Shown here piece after piece: positions 41,301 to 52,105 of a DNA stretch of 64,000 bases. The position numbers were made by a program, and so were the translations under genes. A model generated the notes under the pieces. The model worked only from the letters and a program-made list of their open reading frames with translations, had not been told where the DNA came from and did no database searches. Location: NCBI RefSeq assembly GCF_032595075.1, contig NZ_CP118735.1:462001-526000 (forward strand). Reading direction: 5' to 3'. This stretch comes from Streptococcus sp. 29887 (lineage in GTDB: Bacteria; Bacillota; Bacilli; Lactobacillales; Streptococcaceae). Numbering within the stretch: the stretch's first letter is position 1; each line of letters begins with the position of its first letter.

Positions 41301-41326
41301 TTTAGCCATACTAGATTAAACAAATG

Positions 41327-41350
41327 CCCAGCCTAAAAAGGCTGGGTTTT
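41327..41350 (+). terminator. Terminator at the valS side of the island
   Basis: CCCAGCCT / AGGCTGGG, an 8-bp perfect stem with a four-A loop, followed by TTTT. Confidence 0.85.
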
Positions 41351-41505: not shown

Positions 41506-44403
41506 ATGACTTTAACTTTATTTTTTTTAAGAAAATTTGGTCTAACGAAATATTTGGCACAGTCATATTCAGAATTGGGTATAGAATTATTGGATTTTTT
41601 TGTGAAATATGAGAAATTTAATAAAAATTTGACCAGAGGAAAGTACAATAAAATTTGTAGAATGATTTATCAAAATTTTGTTGAAATCATGAATAGTAAT
41701 ATTTTTGATGAGATTTTCTTGCTTGAATCTGTTGGGGCTAACATTGAAGGGGGTAAATTGTATTGTAAAACGGATTCAATAGAAAAATTTACTGAGTTTT
41801 TGGTCCATAAATGCTCAGATGAAAATAAGAGTACAGCAGCCATGCAAAAAGCAAAAGACTATCTTGAATTATATCAACAACAAGCTTTCGAAGAAACTGT
41901 TAGAAATGAAATGAGCAGATGGAATTTATTTCGTAAATTTATATCAAAAATGACTATAGAAATGAACGACCAGCTAATCATAGAAAATAAAAAAATAGTT
42001 AAGCAATTGGTAGAATCAGGATTAGTTACTAAGGTTGATGGAGAATTTGTATTAAATTTAGAATGTCTGAATTTTTTAGATAAATTTGATAAGTATTTTA
42101 AAATTAATTACGATAATTATTCATTCGATGTGCAAAATTTTATAAAATCTCAGAAGGAAATAGAAACAGATAATGAAGAAATCTCTATTAAAAATTTTCT
42201 TGAGTCTGATTTTAAAAATAAAGAGCTTCTTCTTTTAAGATTAGAGGGAAACAAGTATTCTACAATCGCAAAAATAACTGATACCAAAGAGGCAGTTGTT
42301 CGATATCGAATAAAATCAACTGTTCAAAACAAAATGCCGGTTATAAAAGAAATCGAAAAGTATAAGTCGGTTTATCAGGATTTGAATATTTCAAAAGAGG
42401 TGTTTACATCGATTATTAACTCTGATGGAAGAGTGTATGAACTATTAAGATTACTTTATAAAAAGGGGAAAACAGATGTCAATCCAACTAATCTTTTAAA
42501 ATATGATAATATGCTTTCCGAGAGTACTTCTAGTGAAGATGTAAAGCTGATAGATAATGAAGAGGTTTTTGAAACATCAACAATACAAAAAAATGGATTT
42601 TTATTGGAATCAGCAGTAAGTTTGGATTCCTTCTTAGAATCAGAGTTTAAACATAAAGATATTTTGTTATCACGCTTGAATGGTAATACCTTACAACAGA
42701 TAGGAAATCAATTTGGGTTAACTAGAGAAAGAATACGTCAGATATTAAAAAAAATTCAAAAAAGTATGCCTCCAATCATTGAAGTTAACCAATTTGGTCA
42801 ATTATTTTCAGAATTTGATATTTCAAGAGAAGTATTTAAAAAAGTTTTTGCTGCAGACGATAGAATTTATGAGTTTCTGAATATTAGTCTAAAAAAAGGG
42901 AAAAAATCAATAAGTACTGAAATATTAAACGGAGATTATTCAGATGAAATTAAAGAATATATCCTATCATTATCGAATTATATGATTATTGATGGGGAAA
43001 TCAAAAAACAATCCAGAGAAAACATCATAATTAACGTACTTAAAAAATATTGTGACTTGCAAAAGTATTTTAAAGGTGATGAATTGATGTATTTATTCTC
43101 TGAGGAAAATAAAAAAACTAGCTTACAATTTAAGAGTATTAAATCGTTAGAGAGTCAGTTAGAACGTTATAACCATGTTATTTTTTCAATGGGGAATGGG
43201 TATCGCTATCATAAATTCTTAGTTAATGATGAAATAAGTAATTATCTACATAGTATATTTTCTTATTTAGATGATGGAGCTTATAACATGGATTATGTTT
43301 ACAAGCGTCATATTGACTTTTTTGAAAGTATAGATATTCTAGATGGTTCAGAATTGCATAACTTTATTAAAAAATACAATGTACAAAATCTTGGGATTCA
43401 ATTGAATAGAAATCCAGAATTTGTAAAGGGGGCCTTAAGTAAAAAAGAATATGTTTTTTCTTATTTAAAATTATTTAATAATCAGAAGACGGATCAGTTT
43501 TTAAACTTTATGAATAAAAAATTTGGATTACACAAGGGGTCTTTAGGAGCTTACATTTCAGTTGAATTTGGTGGATATTTAAGTACTTCAACGATATTTA
43601 TAACAGAATCTAACATAATCGGGTTTACTGAATCATTAAAGCAGTACTTTACGGAAGAATTTTATTCGTTGTCAGTATTTGAGAAAATTGCAAAAGAACA
43701 TGGAATTTTTCCTTTGAGCCCTGAAAAAATATTTGCCTTAGGATTTTTTCAACGTGGTTCAATAATCATTAAAAATAGTTATAGAGGTGCAATTGAAGCC
43801 TTATCTACCTATATACTATCACATAAAATTTTTAAGCAAGAGGATAATGAAATTGTCAAATCAAGCGAATACTATAATACAATAAGAATGTTAGAAACTG
43901 AATATAAAATTTTAAAAATTACTAGTGATTCATTTATAAATGTTAAATATTTAGAAAATAGAGGATTTGATTCGAATCGATTAAGAGAATTTGTAACTAA
44001 AGTTGAAAATTTCGTTGATGAAAATGCTTATTTTTCGGTAATATCAATATTAACAGATGGGCTACAAACAGATTTATTTGACGATGGTTTTAGTAAAATT
44101 TCTTTGGATAGATTAATTAGTACATCAGATAAATTTAAAGCAGTAAGTGTAGGATTTCCAAACATCTATTGCAAATCAGGTATTAAAAAGAATTTGAATG
44201 ATTTTTTAGTCGACTTATTATTAGATATAAAATTTGTAAATGTTGAGGATTTTACAATGGATATTAATAATAGATATGGTATAAAGTTAGAGGAATATGA
44301 TGTAAGAAGAAGACTGATCCAACAAGGTATTCATTATTCTGAGGATTTAAACAAGGTATATGTTTATAAAGAAGATTTTTTAAAGGAGGTATATGGAAAA
44401 TGA
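41506..44403 (+). CDS. Unknown HTH protein with two sigma-region-4-like repeats; gene A of candidate defence operon
   Basis: A 965-residue soluble protein in very AT-rich sequence. Residues ~227-335 and ~372-478 are copies of one module: each begins with (I/L)(K/D)(N/S)FLES(D/E)FK, contains an HTH and ends (R)(V/I)YE(L/F)L...KKGK. In the second copy the HTH (TLQQIGNQFGLTRERIRQIL) is a clear sigma-70 region-4 type; in the first copy it is degraded (KYSTIAKITDTKEAVVRYRI). Residues ~500-965 contain further helical, possibly winged-helix, segments. No catalytic motif is seen. It may recognise DNA for the helicase encoded two genes later. The end overlaps gene B by four bases (ATGA). Confidence 0.8.
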   Translation: MTLTLFFLRKFGLTKYLAQSYSELGIELLDFFVKYEKFNKNLTRGKYNKICRMIYQNFVEIMNSNIFDEIFLLESVGANIEGGKLYCKTDSIEKFTEFLVHKCSDENKSTAAMQKAKDYLELYQQQAFEETVRNEMSRWNLFRKFISKMTIEMNDQLIIENKKIVKQLVESGLVTKVDGEFVLNLECLNFLDKFDKYFKINYDNYSFDVQNFIKSQKEIETDNEEISIKNFLESDFKNKELLLLRLEGNKYSTIAKITDTKEAVVRYRIKSTVQNKMPVIKEIEKYKSVYQDLNISKEVFTSIINSDGRVYELLRLLYKKGKTDVNPTNLLKYDNMLSESTSSEDVKLIDNEEVFETSTIQKNGFLLESAVSLDSFLESEFKHKDILLSRLNGNTLQQIGNQFGLTRERIRQILKKIQKSMPPIIEVNQFGQLFSEFDISREVFKKVFAADDRIYEFLNISLKKGKKSISTEILNGDYSDEIKEYILSLSNYMIIDGEIKKQSRENIIINVLKKYCDLQKYFKGDELMYLFSEENKKTSLQFKSIKSLESQLERYNHVIFSMGNGYRYHKFLVNDEISNYLHSIFSYLDDGAYNMDYVYKRHIDFFESIDILDGSELHNFIKKYNVQNLGIQLNRNPEFVKGALSKKEYVFSYLKLFNNQKTDQFLNFMNKKFGLHKGSLGAYISVEFGGYLSTSTIFITESNIIGFTESLKQYFTEEFYSLSVFEKIAKEHGIFPLSPEKIFALGFFQRGSIIIKNSYRGAIEALSTYILSHKIFKQEDNEIVKSSEYYNTIRMLETEYKILKITSDSFINVKYLENRGFDSNRLREFVTKVENFVDENAYFSVISILTDGLQTDLFDDGFSKISLDRLISTSDKFKAVSVGFPNIYCKSGIKKNLNDFLVDLLLDIKFVNVEDFTMDINNRYGIKLEEYDVRRRLIQQGIHYSEDLNKVYVYKEDFLKEVYGK

Positions 44404-45581
44404 ATTTATTTTCGCTTCAATTGGGGGACCCAATTTCTACTAAGAAGTTATCAATTCAAGGAGAGAGAAGAATCTTTGATGTTTATCGAGTACCTATAGA
44501 CTACTTGGTATATAATAAAAAGAATGGTCGTATTGCTACCTATGTTTCAAAATATATAGATGATGGGAATATATTTCCAGAGAGTACCGTAGAATTCAAC
44601 AATATTATCGAAGGCTACATTGAACAAAGCAATCCGGAGGCATTGAAAAGAACGAAAGCTAATATCAAAATTATGTCTCAAACCGAACCAGCAGTTGTTT
44701 TGTCCAATGGAATTGTACTGGATGGGAATAGACGCTTCACTTCAATGAGGCAACTGTCAAGAGATGGTGCCGGGGCAGAGTTTAATTACCTGGAAGCAAT
44801 CATATTAGATAAGGAGAAATATACCGAGAAAGATATTAAGCGTTTAGAATTGAATCTTCAGCATGCTGTAGAGTCTCGGGTTGATTATAATCCTATTGAT
44901 CGCTTAGTTGATATCTATAGAGATTTAATAGAAAATGGTGGTACTTTTTCGGTTGAAGAGTATCATAGAGAAACGCAACTTTCTGTTTCTGAGATTCGAA
45001 AAGAAATTGAGATTGCTAAGTTATTAATTGAATATCTAGAATTTATTAATCAACCAAAACGATTTTATTTAGCTAGAGATCAAAAGGTAGACGGCCCCTT
45101 GCGTGAAATCTATAAAATACTAACTAGTAAAAAAATTGATGATTATGATAAAGATGATATTAAAGAATACCTATTTACAAATATATTGACTCTAGATGGT
45201 GATGTAACACGTCGAATTCGAGAATTGAAAATGGTTTTTGAAGATAGGAAACTTTGTGAAAAGCTATTGGAAGAAGTGGAAGAGGCTCAAATTTTAGATG
45301 ATACAACTGATTATTTTTATGCTGAAAGTGGATCCGATGAAAAAATTGAATTAGATAAAGAAATATCAGAAAAAGTATCAAAACTTACAGAGTCATTCGT
45401 AGAAAAAAAGAAACTTCAAAATGCGAAGAATAAACCATTAGATATTCTCAATAGAGGTTATACAGTTATTAACGAAATTGATAGAGATGCATTATCTAGA
45501 TTAGACGAATCTTCTATAAATGACTTTAGAAGAGTTTTAGAAAATGTCAAATTATTAGTTCAAGAATTGAGTGATTATTAA
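44400..45581 (+). CDS. ParB/Srx-fold protein; gene B of candidate defence operon
   Basis: A 393-residue protein with a ParB-like N-terminal domain: a strand before PAVVLSNGIVLDGNRRF (DGNRR at 108-112), then ELNLQHAVESRVDYNPIDRL (~150-169), which parallels the ParB ENxQR...P box. An HTH-like segment follows (SVEEYHRETQLSVSEIRKEIE, ~184-204). The C-terminal ~150 residues are charged and helical. ParB-fold proteins bind nucleotides and DNA and some are nucleases. It is not a chromosomal ParB: there is no parA or parS nearby. It is coupled to both neighbours (ATGA before, TAATG after). Confidence 0.8.
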   Translation: MNLFSLQLGDPISTKKLSIQGERRIFDVYRVPIDYLVYNKKNGRIATYVSKYIDDGNIFPESTVEFNNIIEGYIEQSNPEALKRTKANIKIMSQTEPAVVLSNGIVLDGNRRFTSMRQLSRDGAGAEFNYLEAIILDKEKYTEKDIKRLELNLQHAVESRVDYNPIDRLVDIYRDLIENGGTFSVEEYHRETQLSVSEIRKEIEIAKLLIEYLEFINQPKRFYLARDQKVDGPLREIYKILTSKKIDDYDKDDIKEYLFTNILTLDGDVTRRIRELKMVFEDRKLCEKLLEEVEEAQILDDTTDYFYAESGSDEKIELDKEISEKVSKLTESFVEKKKLQNAKNKPLDILNRGYTVINEIDRDALSRLDESSINDFRRVLENVKLLVQELSDY

Positions 45582-48133
45582 TGTTATCGAGTATTTCATT
45601 TAAACAAATATATTCAACAAAAAATGATGATATACCAAAATCATTTTATAACATAGCTTTAAGTGAGGCAGTAGAATATAATAGAGTTAGTGGGTATTTT
45701 AGCGGAGCGTCCTTATCATACTTCGCAGCGGGCTTAGAGTCATTATACAAAAATAAGGGCAAGTTTCGGTTAATTGTATCACATGAATTATCGGAAACTG
45801 ATTATAATGATATTGTTTCTGGATATGTAAATAGAAAGAGACTTGAGCAAGAATTAATTGCCAAAATAGACTTGAAAACTCTGAATTTAAATCAACAGAA
45901 AAATTTGGCAAATTTAGGTTTTTTAATTGAAATCGGATTAGTAGATATAAAAATAGGGTTTACGACATCTGGGTTGTTTCATGCAAAATACGGAATTTTT
46001 AAAGATCAGATTGGGAATATTGTTTATTTTTCTGGTTCTTTGAATGAAACTGAGGCAGCTTTCATTAAAAACTATGAAGAAATTACTGTTTTAGAAAGTT
46101 GGAAAAATAATTCAACAATTTTGCAAATGAAATTAGAAGAATTTGAGCTATTGTGGAATAATGACTCAAGTGATGGGATGATATTTGTAAAATCCATCGA
46201 TGAGATTGTAAAATCTCAGTTAATCTCATATAGTAATGGTAGTTTTTTAGTGGATAAAGCGATGTTAAGAAAAAATGCAATAGTAATATATTATGATGAT
46301 GGACTAAAAATTCAAAATAATCTTCTGGATAAAAAAATCGATTCAAGACAGAGATCGTTAAAAAAGTTAATCAAAAAGGGACTCTTAAACACTGAAATCA
46401 CTGATTTTAGATCGAATCTTAATTCTAATGAAGTGGAAGAAATTATTGCTTGCTTCAATAGGTATGGACAAAGAACAAAAACAGAAATTGTAGTATCTAA
46501 TTCAGTTGAAACATTCATTAGTTTGCATAAATTTGAAATTTCAGAGATAGCTAACAGAGGGTTATTAATAAAGAAAAAAGATAGAGCTTTTGAAGAAGAA
46601 TTTAATCAGTTTGCAAAAATTGTACAGGCTGAAATTAGTCGCCCTCTTTTTGATTTACAATTGTGGGTAAGTTTTTTTCATACATTTATGAAGCGTTCTG
46701 CGAACTTTTCAGTTCCTGGAGCAGGAAAAACATCTATGGTTTATGGGGCATATGCCTATTTATCAAGTTCTCAGATTAATAAAATTAATAAATTAGTAGT
46801 TATTGGACCTAAAAATTCTTTCTTATCCTGGAAAGAAGAGTTTAAAAAAGTATTTGATCAAAAACGGACTTTAACTGTATTTGATATCCATTCACCAGAT
46901 TTTTCTTCGGCAATGTTTTATAAAAATACGGGCAAGTTTAATTTGTTTTTGATAAACTATGAGTCGCTTCCAACCTATGAGAAAGAGTTGAGCGAAATCA
47001 TTGATGAAAAAACATTGCTTGTGTTTGATGAAGTTCACAAGATAAAGAGGATTGATTCGATTCGATCACAGATTGCGATTGCACTTTGTCAAAACGTAAT
47101 TTATCGCATTGTTCTGACAGGTACGCCTATTCCAAATAGTTATCAAGATATTTGGAATTTTCTTCAAATACTGTACTCTAATGAATATAATTCTTTTTTT
47201 GGATACACAAAACAACAGTTGAATTATCTTGAGAAGACTGAAATTGAGGAACTAAATCATAAGTTGGCTCCTTTCTTTTGGAGAGTTACCAAAAAACAGT
47301 TAAATGTTCCAGTTGAAAATGAGGATCAATTACTTAGAGTGAATGCAACTGATGCAGAACAAGATGTTATCAATTTATTATGGAGAAAATTCAGTCATAA
47401 TCCATTTAAATTGTATATTCGATTGATTCAGCTATCTTCAAATCCAGAATTATTAAAAAAAAGTATTACAAGTGAGATGTACGGGGAGTATGATGACATA
47501 AGTGATATTGGATTAGAAATCATCGACGATACCCCTCGTTACTCTAAAGAAGAGCTTTTATTGTTGGATTCCATCGGCGCCAGCACGAAATTTAATGAGT
47601 GTATTAAGCTTTCGAAACAATTGTATTTACAAAATAGAAAACACATTATCTGGTGTATTTTTATAGATTCTATTGAGAGATTGCGGGATGCTTTAATAAA
47701 ACTAGGTATGAGAGTTGCGACAATTTATGGAGCCATTAATGCAGAAGAAAGGGAAAAGATAATTTTAGACTATCAACATCAGGAATATGATGTGTTAATA
47801 ACAAATCCTCATACGCTTGCTGAGTCAGTCTCTTTACATATGGTAGCTCATGATGCTATCTATTTTGAATACTCTTTTAATCTAACACATATGCTCCAGT
47901 CGAGAGACCGCATACACAGGCTTGGTCTACCAAAAAACCAAGAAACCAACTATTTCTATTTGATGTTGGATGGACAAGAGGGGATGCGTTCTACAATTGA
48001 TAAAAAGATATACAATAGGTTGAATGATAAAAAGGAAGTAATGGTTAGTGCAATTGAATCTGAATGCATTAGTCCAGAATTTACTATTGATGAGCGAAAT
48101 GAAATTCTTGAAATGATGAGGGAAGAAATTTGA
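45581..48133 (+). CDS. PLD-nuclease / SNF2-helicase fusion; gene C of candidate defence operon
   Basis: An 850-residue two-part enzyme. Residues ~1-175 are a phospholipase-D-type nuclease: H134-x-K136 in GLFHAKYGIF, then GSLNE at 152-156, one HKD-like site as in PLD restriction nucleases that dimerise. Residues ~360-850 are an SNF2-type ATPase: Walker A PGAGKT (379-384), DEVH (483-486), TGTP (513-516), and the late motif QSRDRIHRLG near residue 788. It probably translocates on DNA and cleaves it. The gene starts inside the stop of gene B and is followed by a convergent terminator shared with the methyltransferase. Confidence 0.85.
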   Translation: MLSSISFKQIYSTKNDDIPKSFYNIALSEAVEYNRVSGYFSGASLSYFAAGLESLYKNKGKFRLIVSHELSETDYNDIVSGYVNRKRLEQELIAKIDLKTLNLNQQKNLANLGFLIEIGLVDIKIGFTTSGLFHAKYGIFKDQIGNIVYFSGSLNETEAAFIKNYEEITVLESWKNNSTILQMKLEEFELLWNNDSSDGMIFVKSIDEIVKSQLISYSNGSFLVDKAMLRKNAIVIYYDDGLKIQNNLLDKKIDSRQRSLKKLIKKGLLNTEITDFRSNLNSNEVEEIIACFNRYGQRTKTEIVVSNSVETFISLHKFEISEIANRGLLIKKKDRAFEEEFNQFAKIVQAEISRPLFDLQLWVSFFHTFMKRSANFSVPGAGKTSMVYGAYAYLSSSQINKINKLVVIGPKNSFLSWKEEFKKVFDQKRTLTVFDIHSPDFSSAMFYKNTGKFNLFLINYESLPTYEKELSEIIDEKTLLVFDEVHKIKRIDSIRSQIAIALCQNVIYRIVLTGTPIPNSYQDIWNFLQILYSNEYNSFFGYTKQQLNYLEKTEIEELNHKLAPFFWRVTKKQLNVPVENEDQLLRVNATDAEQDVINLLWRKFSHNPFKLYIRLIQLSSNPELLKKSITSEMYGEYDDISDIGLEIIDDTPRYSKEELLLLDSIGASTKFNECIKLSKQLYLQNRKHIIWCIFIDSIERLRDALIKLGMRVATIYGAINAEEREKIILDYQHQEYDVLITNPHTLAESVSLHMVAHDAIYFEYSFNLTHMLQSRDRIHRLGLPKNQETNYFYLMLDGQEGMRSTIDKKIYNRLNDKKEVMVSAIESECISPEFTIDERNEILEMMREEI

Positions 48134-48137
48134 TTAC

Positions 48138-48171
48138 AAAAACACTCAACTAATTTTAGTCGAGTGTTTTT
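48138..48171. terminator. Bidirectional terminator between the operon and the methyltransferase
   Basis: AAAACACTC / GAGTGTTTT with an inner AACTA / TTAGT stem. It serves both converging genes and overlaps the 3' end of the methyltransferase gene. Confidence 0.85.
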
Positions 48172-49421
48172 ATATATTCCCCAATTTTTCGTACAATTTC
48201 AGTTACGAGGGCATTTCCCATAAAGAACATACGCATTTTATCAGATACTTCTACAATGGAGCCATCTGCTAATTTTTTCTGCTTTGTCCAATCATCTGGG
48301 AAGTCTTGTAATCTCTCAGCTTCTACAGGAGTAATCAGACGATGTCGATTGTTCACTTTGATAAAGTGAGTGGAGCGATTAACTGTCCCCTCGGAAGTCA
48401 ACATAGTTCGTCCAGGTAGATTTAGGTCATCGGTTGGTGACATTCCACCTTCGGAATAAGTATAGGTATGACCGTCTGCCGAAGTTCGCTCAATTTTTTT
48501 AGGACCTCGTAGATATTGGAATTTTTCTAGTTTAGCGGGGTCTGTCAAAAAGTATTTTTCAGGTACATCTTTTTCATCTTGTAAGATTTCTCCAAGAGTG
48601 ATTGGTTGACCTTTATAGTCACACTGAGTATCGACGGAATAGTATTTGCCGTGTCTCATTACCCCTGTATTCCAAACTGTACCTGTGAAATTGTCTGATA
48701 CTTCAACAATATCATTCGCCAATTCGTAGTAGACTTGGCGATTTTTTATTGGTGTTGATTTAATTGGGAACTGAGTGGCAAATAATCCTGAATGGAACAG
48801 GTAGTCATCGTAGCGATTTTCGTTAAATACAGATTCAGTATTTTCAAATTGTTTGTCAAGTCTTTTTGCAAAAGTCGTGTCATTTCGATAAACAAAGAAG
48901 AAGACACGACGGCGACGTTGACTACGTCCGTATTCAGCAGCATTGATAACCCTCCACTCAACTGAGTAGCCGAGATTGTTAAAGGCTGTCAACATGATTG
49001 CAAAGTCACGTCCTCTTTGTTTAGAAGGTGCTTTTAGAAGACGGTCAACGTTTTCTAAAATAAGATATTTAGGTTTAGTGATACGAGTAGCACGGATAAT
49101 TTCCCAAAAGAGAACTCCTTTTTTTCCTTCAATTCCTTGTTCGTTCTTTTTACTGCGAGCGACAGAATAGTCTTGGCATGGAAAACCACCAACAATCATG
49201 TCTGGATCCATCTCAGCAAACTTTTCGTCAGAAATTTCCGAGATACTAATATTTATGTTTTCACTATCTGGAAAATGCAAATCGTAAACTTCAAAAGCAT
49301 CCTGTGATTTTCGAGAAGGCTCCCATTGATTTGCCCATTTTGTTTGGAAGTAATCTTTGTCAGCATTTTCAAGACCGATGCGAAAACCGCCTACACCGGC
49401 AAAGAGTTCGAGAATATTCAT
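48156..49421 (-). CDS. DNA (cytosine-5-)-methyltransferase, Sau3AI type, GATC predicted
   Basis: A 421-residue m5C methyltransferase. Visible motifs: I (LELFAGVGGFRIGLENA), IV with catalytic Cys82 in GGFPCQDYSVARS, VI (LILENVDRLLK), VIII (QRRRRVFF), and X (FFMGNALV). The target region and the flanking SEGGMSPTD and RTMLTSEGTVNRSTHF segments strongly recall M.Sau3AI, so the predicted product is GATm5C. It protects the host against the divergently encoded endonuclease. A perfect SD (GAGGAGAAAAA) precedes the start. Specificity is inference from remembered family features. Confidence 0.93.
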   Translation of the reverse strand: MNILELFAGVGGFRIGLENADKDYFQTKWANQWEPSRKSQDAFEVYDLHFPDSENINISISEISDEKFAEMDPDMIVGGFPCQDYSVARSKKNEQGIEGKKGVLFWEIIRATRITKPKYLILENVDRLLKAPSKQRGRDFAIMLTAFNNLGYSVEWRVINAAEYGRSQRRRRVFFFVYRNDTTFAKRLDKQFENTESVFNENRYDDYLFHSGLFATQFPIKSTPIKNRQVYYELANDIVEVSDNFTGTVWNTGVMRHGKYYSVDTQCDYKGQPITLGEILQDEKDVPEKYFLTDPAKLEKFQYLRGPKKIERTSADGHTYTYSEGGMSPTDDLNLPGRTMLTSEGTVNRSTHFIKVNNRHRLITPVEAERLQDFPDDWTKQKKLADGSIVEVSDKMRMFFMGNALVTEIVRKIGEYIKTLD

Positions 49422-49532: not shown

Positions 49533-51023
49533 ATGGAAAAGCAGTTATTCAATTATGATGAGACAGATATTCAAAGTATTCTTGATTATTCTCAATATTT
49601 ATTAGATAGATCACTTGGAGAGATTATTGCGGAATACCAAGTTTCACCTTATAAAACTTATCAAGATTTTAAAGAGGGTACGCCTTCAGAAGTTGTTGAT
49701 AAAGAAATCAGCATGAAATCTAAGGGGCAATATGGCAATTACATAGAAAAGTATTTCTATGGTTATCAGCCCAATAGTGATTCTGCCGCTGACTTTGATA
49801 AGGTTGGAGTGGAATTAAAAGTAACGCCTTTTAAAGTGAACAAGAATGGAACAATTAGTGCAAAAGAGCGATTAGTTTTAACAATATTAAACTATATGGA
49901 GGAAAATCTAGATGACTTTTACTCCACTCATCTATGGCAAAAATGTTCTAAAATACTTTTACTGTTTTACAATGGTCTCATTCCGGGGCAGACCATGTCA
50001 GATTATATCATTGAAAAAGTCTTCTTGTATGAATGGTTTGAAGAGGATATGGAGGTTATCCTTGAGGATTATAATCGCATTGTAGAAAAGATTAAGCAAG
50101 GTAAAGCCCATGAACTTTCTGAATCCGATGGAAACTACTTGTCTACCTGTACAAAAGGTGCGGGAAAAGGAAAAGATTTTCGTATTCAGCCGTTTAGTGA
50201 CATTCTAGCAAAACAAAGGGCTTGGGAATTAAAGTCAAGTTATATGACTTATTTAATCAATCATAAGATATTCAATCAAGTTGATCAAGAAAGTATATTA
50301 GCAACTGCCAGAGGCGAGAAAAAATCATTTACACAGGTTATTGCAGACAAAATTTTAGCCTATAAAGGATTTTCTGAGGAAGAATTATATAGCCGATTTG
50401 AGGTGAATCCTAAAGCAAAAGGAAAAAATAGTACCTTAATTAAAAATATTTTGGGACTAACTGGTGACCTTGATAAGACACAAGAATTTCAAAAAGCCAA
50501 TATGAATTTACGAGTCATTCGGGTAGATAAAAATGGCTTGCCCAAAGAAGATTCTCCTTTTAAAACTTATCAATTTGAAGAATTGGCAAGGAATGATATG
50601 TGGGAGGAATCTCATCCTTATTTGGAGATTTGCAATAAACGATTTCTATTTGTTATCTTTAGAGAAGTATCAGATAAGTTATTTGTGTTAGATGGTATAA
50701 AGTTTTGGGGATTTCCGGATAGGCTAATTCCTGAGATTCAACGAGTTTGGAATGAAACCCGAAACATTATTCGAGATGGAGTTGAACTGAAGCTAAATGG
50801 TAATAAAGTCTCGACAAACTTTCCTCAAAGTAAAGTAAATACAATTTTATTTACAAAAATTCATGCTCAAAATACCTACTACGAAATCCGACCAAATGAA
50901 TTTGTAGGTAAGGGTAAATTATCAGATACTGACAAACTACCAGACGGAAGAAGAATAACGAAACACTCATTTTGGATTCCTAAAAAATTTTTGAAAGAAG
51001 TTTTATTAGGTGAGTGGGATTAA
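49533..51023 (+). CDS. Sau3AI-type type II restriction endonuclease (GATC predicted)
   Basis: A 496-residue endonuclease with the MutH/Sau3AI design. The catalytic domain covers residues ~25-200, with acidic D87/D89, then E94-x-K96 in DFDKVGVELKVTPF. A second, MutH-like C-terminal domain (~270-490) binds an additional site, as in R.Sau3AI, and contains SPFKTYQFEELARNDMWEES. Length is like Sau3AI (489). With the adjacent m5C methyltransferase it forms a complete GATC system. SD (AAGGA) precedes ATG 49533. Confidence 0.9.
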   Translation: MEKQLFNYDETDIQSILDYSQYLLDRSLGEIIAEYQVSPYKTYQDFKEGTPSEVVDKEISMKSKGQYGNYIEKYFYGYQPNSDSAADFDKVGVELKVTPFKVNKNGTISAKERLVLTILNYMEENLDDFYSTHLWQKCSKILLLFYNGLIPGQTMSDYIIEKVFLYEWFEEDMEVILEDYNRIVEKIKQGKAHELSESDGNYLSTCTKGAGKGKDFRIQPFSDILAKQRAWELKSSYMTYLINHKIFNQVDQESILATARGEKKSFTQVIADKILAYKGFSEEELYSRFEVNPKAKGKNSTLIKNILGLTGDLDKTQEFQKANMNLRVIRVDKNGLPKEDSPFKTYQFEELARNDMWEESHPYLEICNKRFLFVIFREVSDKLFVLDGIKFWGFPDRLIPEIQRVWNETRNIIRDGVELKLNGNKVSTNFPQSKVNTILFTKIHAQNTYYEIRPNEFVGKGKLSDTDKLPDGRRITKHSFWIPKKFLKEVLLGEWD

Positions 51024-51043: not shown

Positions 51044-52105
51044 ATGAACAAAACTAATTCTTACAAAATCCACCTCCCCTCTCTCATCCCTTTCGGTTTT
51101 ATCCTCTCCAACAATCGTTACACCTACCGTGAGGTCTTCATGGAGGGGCAGTTTGAGGCGGTGATTGAAGTTGATGAGGCTGGTCAGCTGTCGTCCTATG
51201 TTTGGGATTGTGAGATGGAGGAGGTCTATACTGCCCATATGGTGACTGCGCCGGCTGGGGCTTTTGTGGGGCAGGTGCGTGAGGCTTACCAGACCATTTT
51301 GGCTCGGGTAGAGAGAGCCTGCTGTGTCGCTCTGCCATTTTCCAAAGACCAAAGCAACCGCATAGCCCAGCTCATCAAGGAGAAGTGGGGCGACCTTCCT
51401 GACTATCCTTTTGCCAAGTTGCCGACCTATGGGGCTTTTCGCCATCCCAACAATAACAAGTGGTACGCCCTGGTCAGTCAGATTCCGAGGGACAAGCTGG
51501 ATGGGAGCGGTTCTCAAGAAGAGGTGGAGATTGTCAATCTCAAGGTCGATAGTCGAGAAATAGCAAAGCTGCTAAGTCAGTCGGGCATTTTCCCAGCTTA
51601 TCACATGTCTAAGAAGTCTTGGGTGTCGGTCTTGCTGGATGAGACTGTGGAGGACCAGACGGTGTTTGCCCTCCTTGAGAAAAGTCGCTATCTGGTGGGG
51701 CCAAAATCCTACAAGGCGGCGAAAGGGCCTGATTACTGGGTTATTCCAGCCAATCCAAAGGTCTATGATATTGATACAGAGTTTGCGGAAAATAAGGTAG
51801 TCTATTGGCCACAAAAATCAACCATTCAAGCTGGAGATATTGTAGCCATCTATGTGACGGCGCCTGTACAGGTCATTCGCTATGTTTGTCGTGTCTTAGG
51901 AGCGAATTTAGAAAATCACGGGGAATCAGATATTCCGACAGAAAAGAAACTCATGCAGGTAGAGTTGCTTGCTCAACTAACTGATGATGTGTTGCCGAAA
52001 TCACGCATGATGGACCTAGGAGTGAAAGCTGTCCGTGGACCTAGACGGTTGACAGAAGAGTTGATAAGAGAATTGCAGAAACAATTTTCTTATCAGGATT
52101 TCTAA
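51044..52105 (+). CDS. MmcQ/YjbR-like and EVE domain fusion protein
   Basis: A 353-residue protein starting 20 bases after the endonuclease. Residues ~1-90 are beta-rich (PFGFILSNNRYTYREVFMEG), residues ~121-220 match the MmcQ/YjbR DNA-binding fold (PTYGAFRHPNNNKWYALV, then AYHMSKKSWVSVLLD), and residues ~228-345 are an EVE domain (DYWVIPANPKVYDID, VVYWPQKSTIQAGDIVAIYV). EVE domains read modified bases. Base composition is clearly higher in GC than in the island, so it may be an older chromosomal gene. Function unknown. Confidence 0.8.
   Translation: MNKTNSYKIHLPSLIPFGFILSNNRYTYREVFMEGQFEAVIEVDEAGQLSSYVWDCEMEEVYTAHMVTAPAGAFVGQVREAYQTILARVERACCVALPFSKDQSNRIAQLIKEKWGDLPDYPFAKLPTYGAFRHPNNNKWYALVSQIPRDKLDGSGSQEEVEIVNLKVDSREIAKLLSQSGIFPAYHMSKKSWVSVLLDETVEDQTVFALLEKSRYLVGPKSYKAAKGPDYWVIPANPKVYDIDTEFAENKVVYWPQKSTIQAGDIVAIYVTAPVQVIRYVCRVLGANLENHGESDIPTEKKLMQVELLAQLTDDVLPKSRMMDLGVKAVRGPRRLTEELIRELQKQFSYQDF

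Follow-up and report, generated by a model that had tools for sequence, protein, structure and literature searches.

A candidate ATP-dependent restriction module beside a Sau3AI-type restriction-modification pair in Streptococcus

Sau3AI is a textbook restriction enzyme: Sau3AI systems are known as gene pairs that work without ATP, and the second half of the enzyme, which does not cut, has been explained as an effector-binding domain. In a 64,000-nucleotide stretch of the genome of Streptococcus sp. 29887 (contig NZ_CP118735.1, positions 462,001 to 526,000 of the forward strand; hereafter the window), a Sau3AI-type pair, comprising a restriction endonuclease gene (R) and a methyltransferase gene (M), adjoins an operon of three genes. 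These encode a modular helix-turn-helix (HTH) protein (A), a ParB-fold protein (B), and a PLD nuclease fused to an SNF2 ATPase (C). We propose that A, B and C probably constitute an ATP-dependent restriction module that works together with the GATC-specific restriction-modification (R-M) pair. At the level of sequence, this proposal is supported by gene content, domain composition, intact catalytic motifs, recurrent linkage to Sau3AI-type genes in many distantly related bacteria, and the reader proteins and fusions found in relatives.

Results

Among named proteins, the closest matches come from S. suis. The genes and domains concerned are listed here in window coordinates.

41506-44403, forward strand: gene A, 965 residues, modular HTH protein (alpha-CTD-like and sigma-region-4-like units, winged helices)
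42661-42756, forward strand: sigma-70 region-4 HTH of A, residues 386-417 (Pfam)
43495-44397, forward strand: C-terminal domain of A, residues 664-964, fused to the Sau3AI effector half in relatives (alignment with 8 reader fusions)
44400-45581, forward strand: gene B, 393 residues, ParB-fold protein with a conserved DGNRR
45581-48133, forward strand: gene C, 850 residues, PLD (HKD) nuclease fused to an SNF2 ATPase (Pfam; PADLOC PbeA; motifs)
45584-46249, forward strand: PLD nuclease half of C, with HxK at 134/136 and GSxN at 152-155 (PADLOC PbeA match; motifs)
46715-47926, forward strand: SNF2 and helicase-C motor of C, with GAGKT at 380-384 and DEVH at 483-486 (Pfam; motifs)
48156-49421, reverse strand: gene M, 421 residues, C5-cytosine methyltransferase of the family that accompanies Sau3AI endonucleases (PF00145, E 4e-63; methyltransferase alignment)
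49533-51023, forward strand: gene R, 496 residues, Sau3AI-family endonuclease (predicted site GATC) with an intact catalytic D-x6-E-x-K (NCBIfam; PDB; alignment)
49758-50069, forward strand: catalytic MutH-like half of R (PF02976, residues 76-179)
50319-50999, forward strand: non-catalytic effector half of R, alone or fused to the A C-terminal domain in relatives (PDB 2reu and 7xm0 match residues 262-489; reader proteins)

R scores 532 bits against the NCBIfam model restrict_Sau3AI, whose cut-off is 300, and matches Sau3AI (PDB 4pxg) at E 1e-59; its D-x6-E-x-K, read against what we take to be the catalytic residues of MutH, is seen in an alignment with 10 full-length relatives. M is 42-64% identical, end to end, to the methyltransferases of 3 stand-alone Sau3AI systems. 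Among methyltransferases from loci with the trio or with B and C, 26 proteins longer than 380 residues, from bacterial and plasmid loci, also align with M end to end (40-81%), and 11 from viral contigs align over the N-terminal half only. Judged from these alignments, the 26 linked methyltransferases and those of the 3 solo systems are one family. Both R and M in the window are predicted to be specific for GATC.

Sau3AI contains a duplicated MutH fold, the degenerate second copy of which is described as an effector-binding domain (PMC548270, PMC1189080). In relatives of the window's system this second half occurs without the catalytic one, in proteins that we call readers: 11 were found by profile and 3 by BLAST (loci L171-L173), with the caveats that the reader of L028 runs off its locus and that the L173 reader is weak, with nothing matched in Pfam. 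In eight readers the effector half is joined to a domain of 300 residues that is homologous to the C-terminal part of A, and at L045 a complete Sau3AI and A are joined in one protein of 1311 residues. In 12 of 14 cases the reader gene shares a strand with A, B or C and is no more than 54 bp away, the exceptions being L014 (133 bp) and L028 (430 bp), both on the opposite strand. At L171, L172 and L173, which have a full Sau3AI-type gene as well, the reader sits 7-14 bp upstream of B, in the position of A. Each of five draft genomes (L019, L021, L022, L024 and L027) has exactly one C5 methyltransferase, about 3-5 kb from B, and the reader is the sole PF02976 protein found there. Two of these loci, L021 (Planomicrobium soli) and L024 (Salinibacillus xinjiangensis), combine a reader-A fusion with A, B, C and the methyltransferase gene.

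Linkage was surveyed with a nine-row alignment of B, here A1 (window, plasmids, prophage and Streptococcus), at least 3 of whose loci are near Sau3AI-type genes. Scanning GTDB contigs with A1 yielded 186 relatives of B, of which the best 80 were kept, making 79 loci. C adjoins B in 58 of the 79, and A is directly upstream in 51 of those 58, so that the co-occurrence of the trio, which the first-pass annotation had singled out for checking, was borne out. C carries the PLD nuclease in 34 of the 58, lacks it in 23, and is cut by the contig end in 1. A Sau3AI-type protein was present in the fetched stretch at 22 of the 34 loci whose C bears the PLD nuclease (16 with the full protein and 6 with just a reader, one of the latter cut by a contig end) versus 1 of 23 PLD-less loci, and a C5 methyltransferase was likewise present at 22 of 34 versus 1 of 23. 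The association of PLD with Sau3AI has a Fisher p of 4e-6 if kinship is ignored. A tree of C (70 rows) requires 8 changes for the nuclease half and 11 for the Sau3AI link, so both seem to have been repeatedly gained and lost.

As a background, PF02976 (MutH/Sau3AI) occurs in 6 of 398 phylum genomes and in 34 of 395 order genomes (33 over cut-off). It occurs in 27 of 49 genomes with B among the best A1 matches, which derive from 50 of the 79 loci, with one left out, and were not drawn blindly with respect to B. Of those 27 genomes, 23 have it within about 7 kb of B (further away in L028, L030, L033 and L037). In the reverse direction, 6 of 39 genomes picked solely for PF02976 also have B, and in all 6, which include the window's genome, the two are within 4.4 kb.

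The best PADLOC match of C is PbeA (whole-protein E 5e-62), with the best stretch at residues 2-223, in the PLD half. Pfam matches to SNF2, helicase-C and PLD agree with the join of nuclease and ATPase first read from motifs, and the residues previously chosen for mutation (H134, K136 and K383) do belong to the HKD and Walker-A motifs and are the same in all 40 PLD-bearing relatives compared. The sigma-region-4-like HTH noted in A is a sigma-70 region 4 at Pfam E 9e-7. The ParB-like fold of B is supported by structure comparison, with the positions of ParB motifs presumed; the window's own B has no Pfam match, among 51 relatives of B, a Pfam ParB family is matched by only 4 (ddrB-ParB, with E up to 0.01), and the host ParB has no detectable sequence-profile similarity to B (hhalign probability 0.5%). 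A and B have no PADLOC match, and no whole PADLOC or NCBIfam system was matched, in keeping with the earlier remark that the trio could not be matched to a named system. A B homologue is interrupted in another Streptococcus genome (G192:C1:598837-600005; L006, L010), and at L034 B and C form a single frame of 1024 residues.

The trio or B-C pair also has other partners. At L013 it lies beside type I HsdMSR; at L096 a type III Mod-Res pair, by Pfam names at this locus, immediately precedes B and a C without PLD, and L097-L099 resemble L096 by gene length; at L076 the neighbours are GIY-YIG helicase and GmrSD genes. A viral cassette (L016, a Streptococcus prophage, and L100-L111) comprises a BanI/DpnII-like endonuclease (named from two members, L016 and L101), B, an SNF2 protein without PLD, a NOV_C protein (named from one member) and a C5 methyltransferase; B, SNF2 and methyltransferase are all present in 10 of the 13 viral loci. 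These varied partners suggest that a common core is served by different readers. In Clostridia, a longer form of B is accompanied by A, without a motor gene. At L079, L083, L086, L088, L090, L091 and L094, a B of about 575 residues directly precedes A with no adjoining SNF2 gene, and the added N-terminal part of the L086 protein is a HEPN domain of Swt1 type (a HEPN_Swt1-B fusion). These long-B loci are possibly an RNase or toxin branch of the B family. L028 and L030 (Exiguobacterium) have a tandem A-B-C-A-B arrangement, and proteins with an AspBHI-N domain, of restriction endonuclease type, adjoin the trio or B-C at L020 and L172.

In the window, the five genes occupy an island of about 9.8 kb between valS and YjbR, whose left edge is marked by one further feature.

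41326-41347, forward strand: terminator-like hairpin closing valS, left edge of the island (9-pair stem and T tail)

A, B and C are overlapping open reading frames, and the ATGA and TAATG joins described in the first-pass annotation are both seen in their coordinates. Their AT-richness likewise holds, with GC contents of 0.266, 0.316 and 0.309, where the 43 other non-overlapping window reading frames of at least 120 residues average 0.428 (SD 0.039). M and R, which that annotation missed, are also AT-rich (0.389 and 0.331), and they intervene before the supposed right neighbour, the MmcQ/YjbR-EVE gene, which starts at 51044. A single promoter after a strong terminator had also been described: the stem-loop with its T tail is there after valS, but the single promoter is unproven, because terminator-like sites, of which this is one, number 4 versus 3.3 in shuffles, and promoter-like matches are at chance (52 versus 50.1 expected).

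The valS-YjbR gap was compared in 21 genomes, of which 6, including the window's, have both flanks close together on one contig; there it measures about 0.6, 2.4, 3.7, 9.8, 12.3 and 27 kb. In the 5 genomes whose genes were read, a scan of 10 proteins also turned up an enzyme of SauUSI type (L166, 855 bits against mREase_IV models) and one of type IIG. We call this interval a variable defence hotspot, holding other R-M genes elsewhere in the genus. At L164 (8311-8526, genome G243), the island within the interval contains a second copy of the valS C-terminus (71 residues, 76% identity to residues 813-882), as though an element integrating at valS had supplied a substitute 3' end.

Discussion

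In the model that we favour, M would methylate host GATC sites and thereby protect them, and a Sau3AI-type GATC-binding domain, belonging to the intact enzyme in the window and to the free or A-fused non-cutting half in relatives, would locate unmethylated GATC. A would act as an array of HTH units, with the reader docked on its C-terminal domain, and B as a ParB-fold protein, perhaps a nucleotide-gated DNA clamp; together they would pass the GATC site to C, whose SNF2 motor would move along DNA on ATP and whose HKD nuclease would cut. In the window, Sau3AI and C would both be able to cut, and Sau3AI itself may supply reading by contact rather than fusion, or act in parallel. At reader-only loci, C would serve as the nuclease. 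The model predicts complex formation, GATC specificity, translocation, cutting and phage defence.

The first-pass annotation, in which A and B recognise or mark DNA and C translocates and cuts, appears half right: recognition plausibly falls to the Sau3AI-type domain together with A, but marking would come from M, not from A or B. The defence role that it proposed is well supported by the neighbours (the adjoining R-M pair, the type I, type III and BanI/DpnII-like genes beside relatives, and the variable interval), with phage defence itself still a prediction. The trio does co-occur as a unit, but it is probably not stand-alone, as the PLD-bearing branch is often tied to a Sau3AI-type C5 methyltransferase and to Sau3AI or its GATC-binding half.

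That the non-cutting half of Sau3AI, alone or HTH-fused, shares operons with a ParB-fold protein and a motor-nuclease suggests ATP-dependent restriction assembled from type II components. This provides a directly testable case. It also predicts that the ParB fold has a part in restriction, and it suggests that a motor module has gone unrecognised in some systems annotated as plain Sau3AI pairs. A more specific version, which we regard as speculative and rather unlikely, is that B is a ParB-type, nucleotide-gated clamp that is loaded at unmethylated GATC by the A-docked Sau3AI effector domain, and that B then slides and recruits or licenses the SNF2-HKD nuclease, the readers being interchangeable and drawn from different R-M enzymes. 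If true, A-B-C would be a general restriction engine plugging into type I, II and III systems, and restriction would proceed by a partition-type clamp.

Several observations weigh against the favoured model. The trio or B-C stands beside R-M types other than Sau3AI; in the window itself, R lies outside the trio operon, 1.4 kb from C, with M between them on the opposite strand. No Sau3AI-type protein is in range at 12 of the 34 PLD-bearing loci, and at L054 and L170 a C without the PLD half lies beside a full Sau3AI. A tree-based test of the PLD-Sau3AI link, with 5 usable independent pairs, is not significant (median p 0.25), and the 49 genomes were, as said, not chosen blindly. B occurs in 9 of the 398 phylum genomes and PF02976 in only 2 of those 9, which means that B also has other partners. 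Of the 34 order genomes with PF02976, 29 are without B, so the R-M pair does not need the trio and the window's Sau3AI could act alone.

Some of these points suit other explanations. A-B-C could be a clean-up or booster module, in which Sau3AI or another R-M enzyme cuts, A-B-C degrades or traps the ends, and the GATC reader merely recruits it. The type I, type III, BanI/DpnII-like and GmrSD neighbours described above fit this idea, as do the PLD-less C proteins found with full Sau3AI; yet the five draft genomes with a reader and B-C have no other PF02976 protein, so there would be no Sau3AI cut to follow, which argues against it, and we consider it an unlikely account. Alternatively, A-B-C could be a complete defence system of its own that shares a hotspot with Sau3AI R-M by chance or clustering. 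The variable valS-YjbR interval, the 7 of 9 phylum-sample B genomes without PF02976, and the placement of R and M outside the operon are all expected on that view, but it sits poorly with the Sau3AI-A fusions, the readers inside the operon, the reader replacing A, and the short B-PF02976 distance in all 6 genomes of the reverse test with both. We judge such independence quite improbable.

Two further readings start from C. A type IV, SauUSI-like role, in which C attacks methylated or otherwise modified phage DNA, draws on the PLD and SF2 motor architecture of SauUSI (PLD-SF2-TRD), for which PMC7913695 reports ATP-driven translocation and cutting. However, C matches none of the mREase_IV models (23 families, E up to 0.1), whereas the L166 protein of that type scores highly, and many loci retain a C5 methyltransferase, which such an enzyme could turn into a source of self-attack; this role is very improbable. 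We give the least credence to a variant of PbeABCD, an HKD-SF2 nuclease with a CxC ABC-ATPase and a DndE-like protein. PbeA joins an HKD nuclease to an SF2 helicase (PMC10853773), and the PLD half of C is strongly PbeA-like, but the rest of C matches only in part. The reading is already disfavoured because its partners are missing: among A, B, C, M, R and YjbR there is no CxC ABC-ATPase (PbeC) or DndE-like PbeD, ParB and HTH partners taking their place, and DndC, the sole phosphorothioation gene tested, is absent from the genome. According to PMC6459918, dndCD is often absent near pbeAC as well.

A restriction module working with the GATC pair, the reading that we prefer, shares features with several known systems. 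R and M belong to Sau3AI R-M, a type IIE endonuclease with a C5 methyltransferase: the endonuclease is above the curated cut-off, has the MutH-like D-x6-E-x-K, and adjoins a C5 methyltransferase of the cognate family. The difference is the attached three-gene ATPase module and, in some relatives, the loss of the catalytic half. SauUSI resembles C in fusing an HKD nuclease to a DNA motor but is one protein and targets modified C, and CglI/NgoAVII likewise combine methyltransferase, PLD nuclease and ATPase (PMC7913695). DISARM does not fit: there is no DrmB, and the PADLOC matches are 11 bits for DrmA and 14-25 bits to the C motor for DrmD. B shares the ParB fold with the CTPases ParB, Noc and KorB, and CTP binding by B is putative. 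Literature titles and abstract openings, with subscription papers mostly outside coverage, gave no account of this gene combination. Judged by its domains, the system follows the logic of SauUSI or CglI/NgoAVII (methyltransferase or methyl-reader, PLD nuclease, ATP motor), but their defining features fail where tested, and we file it as a new variant of restriction-modification.
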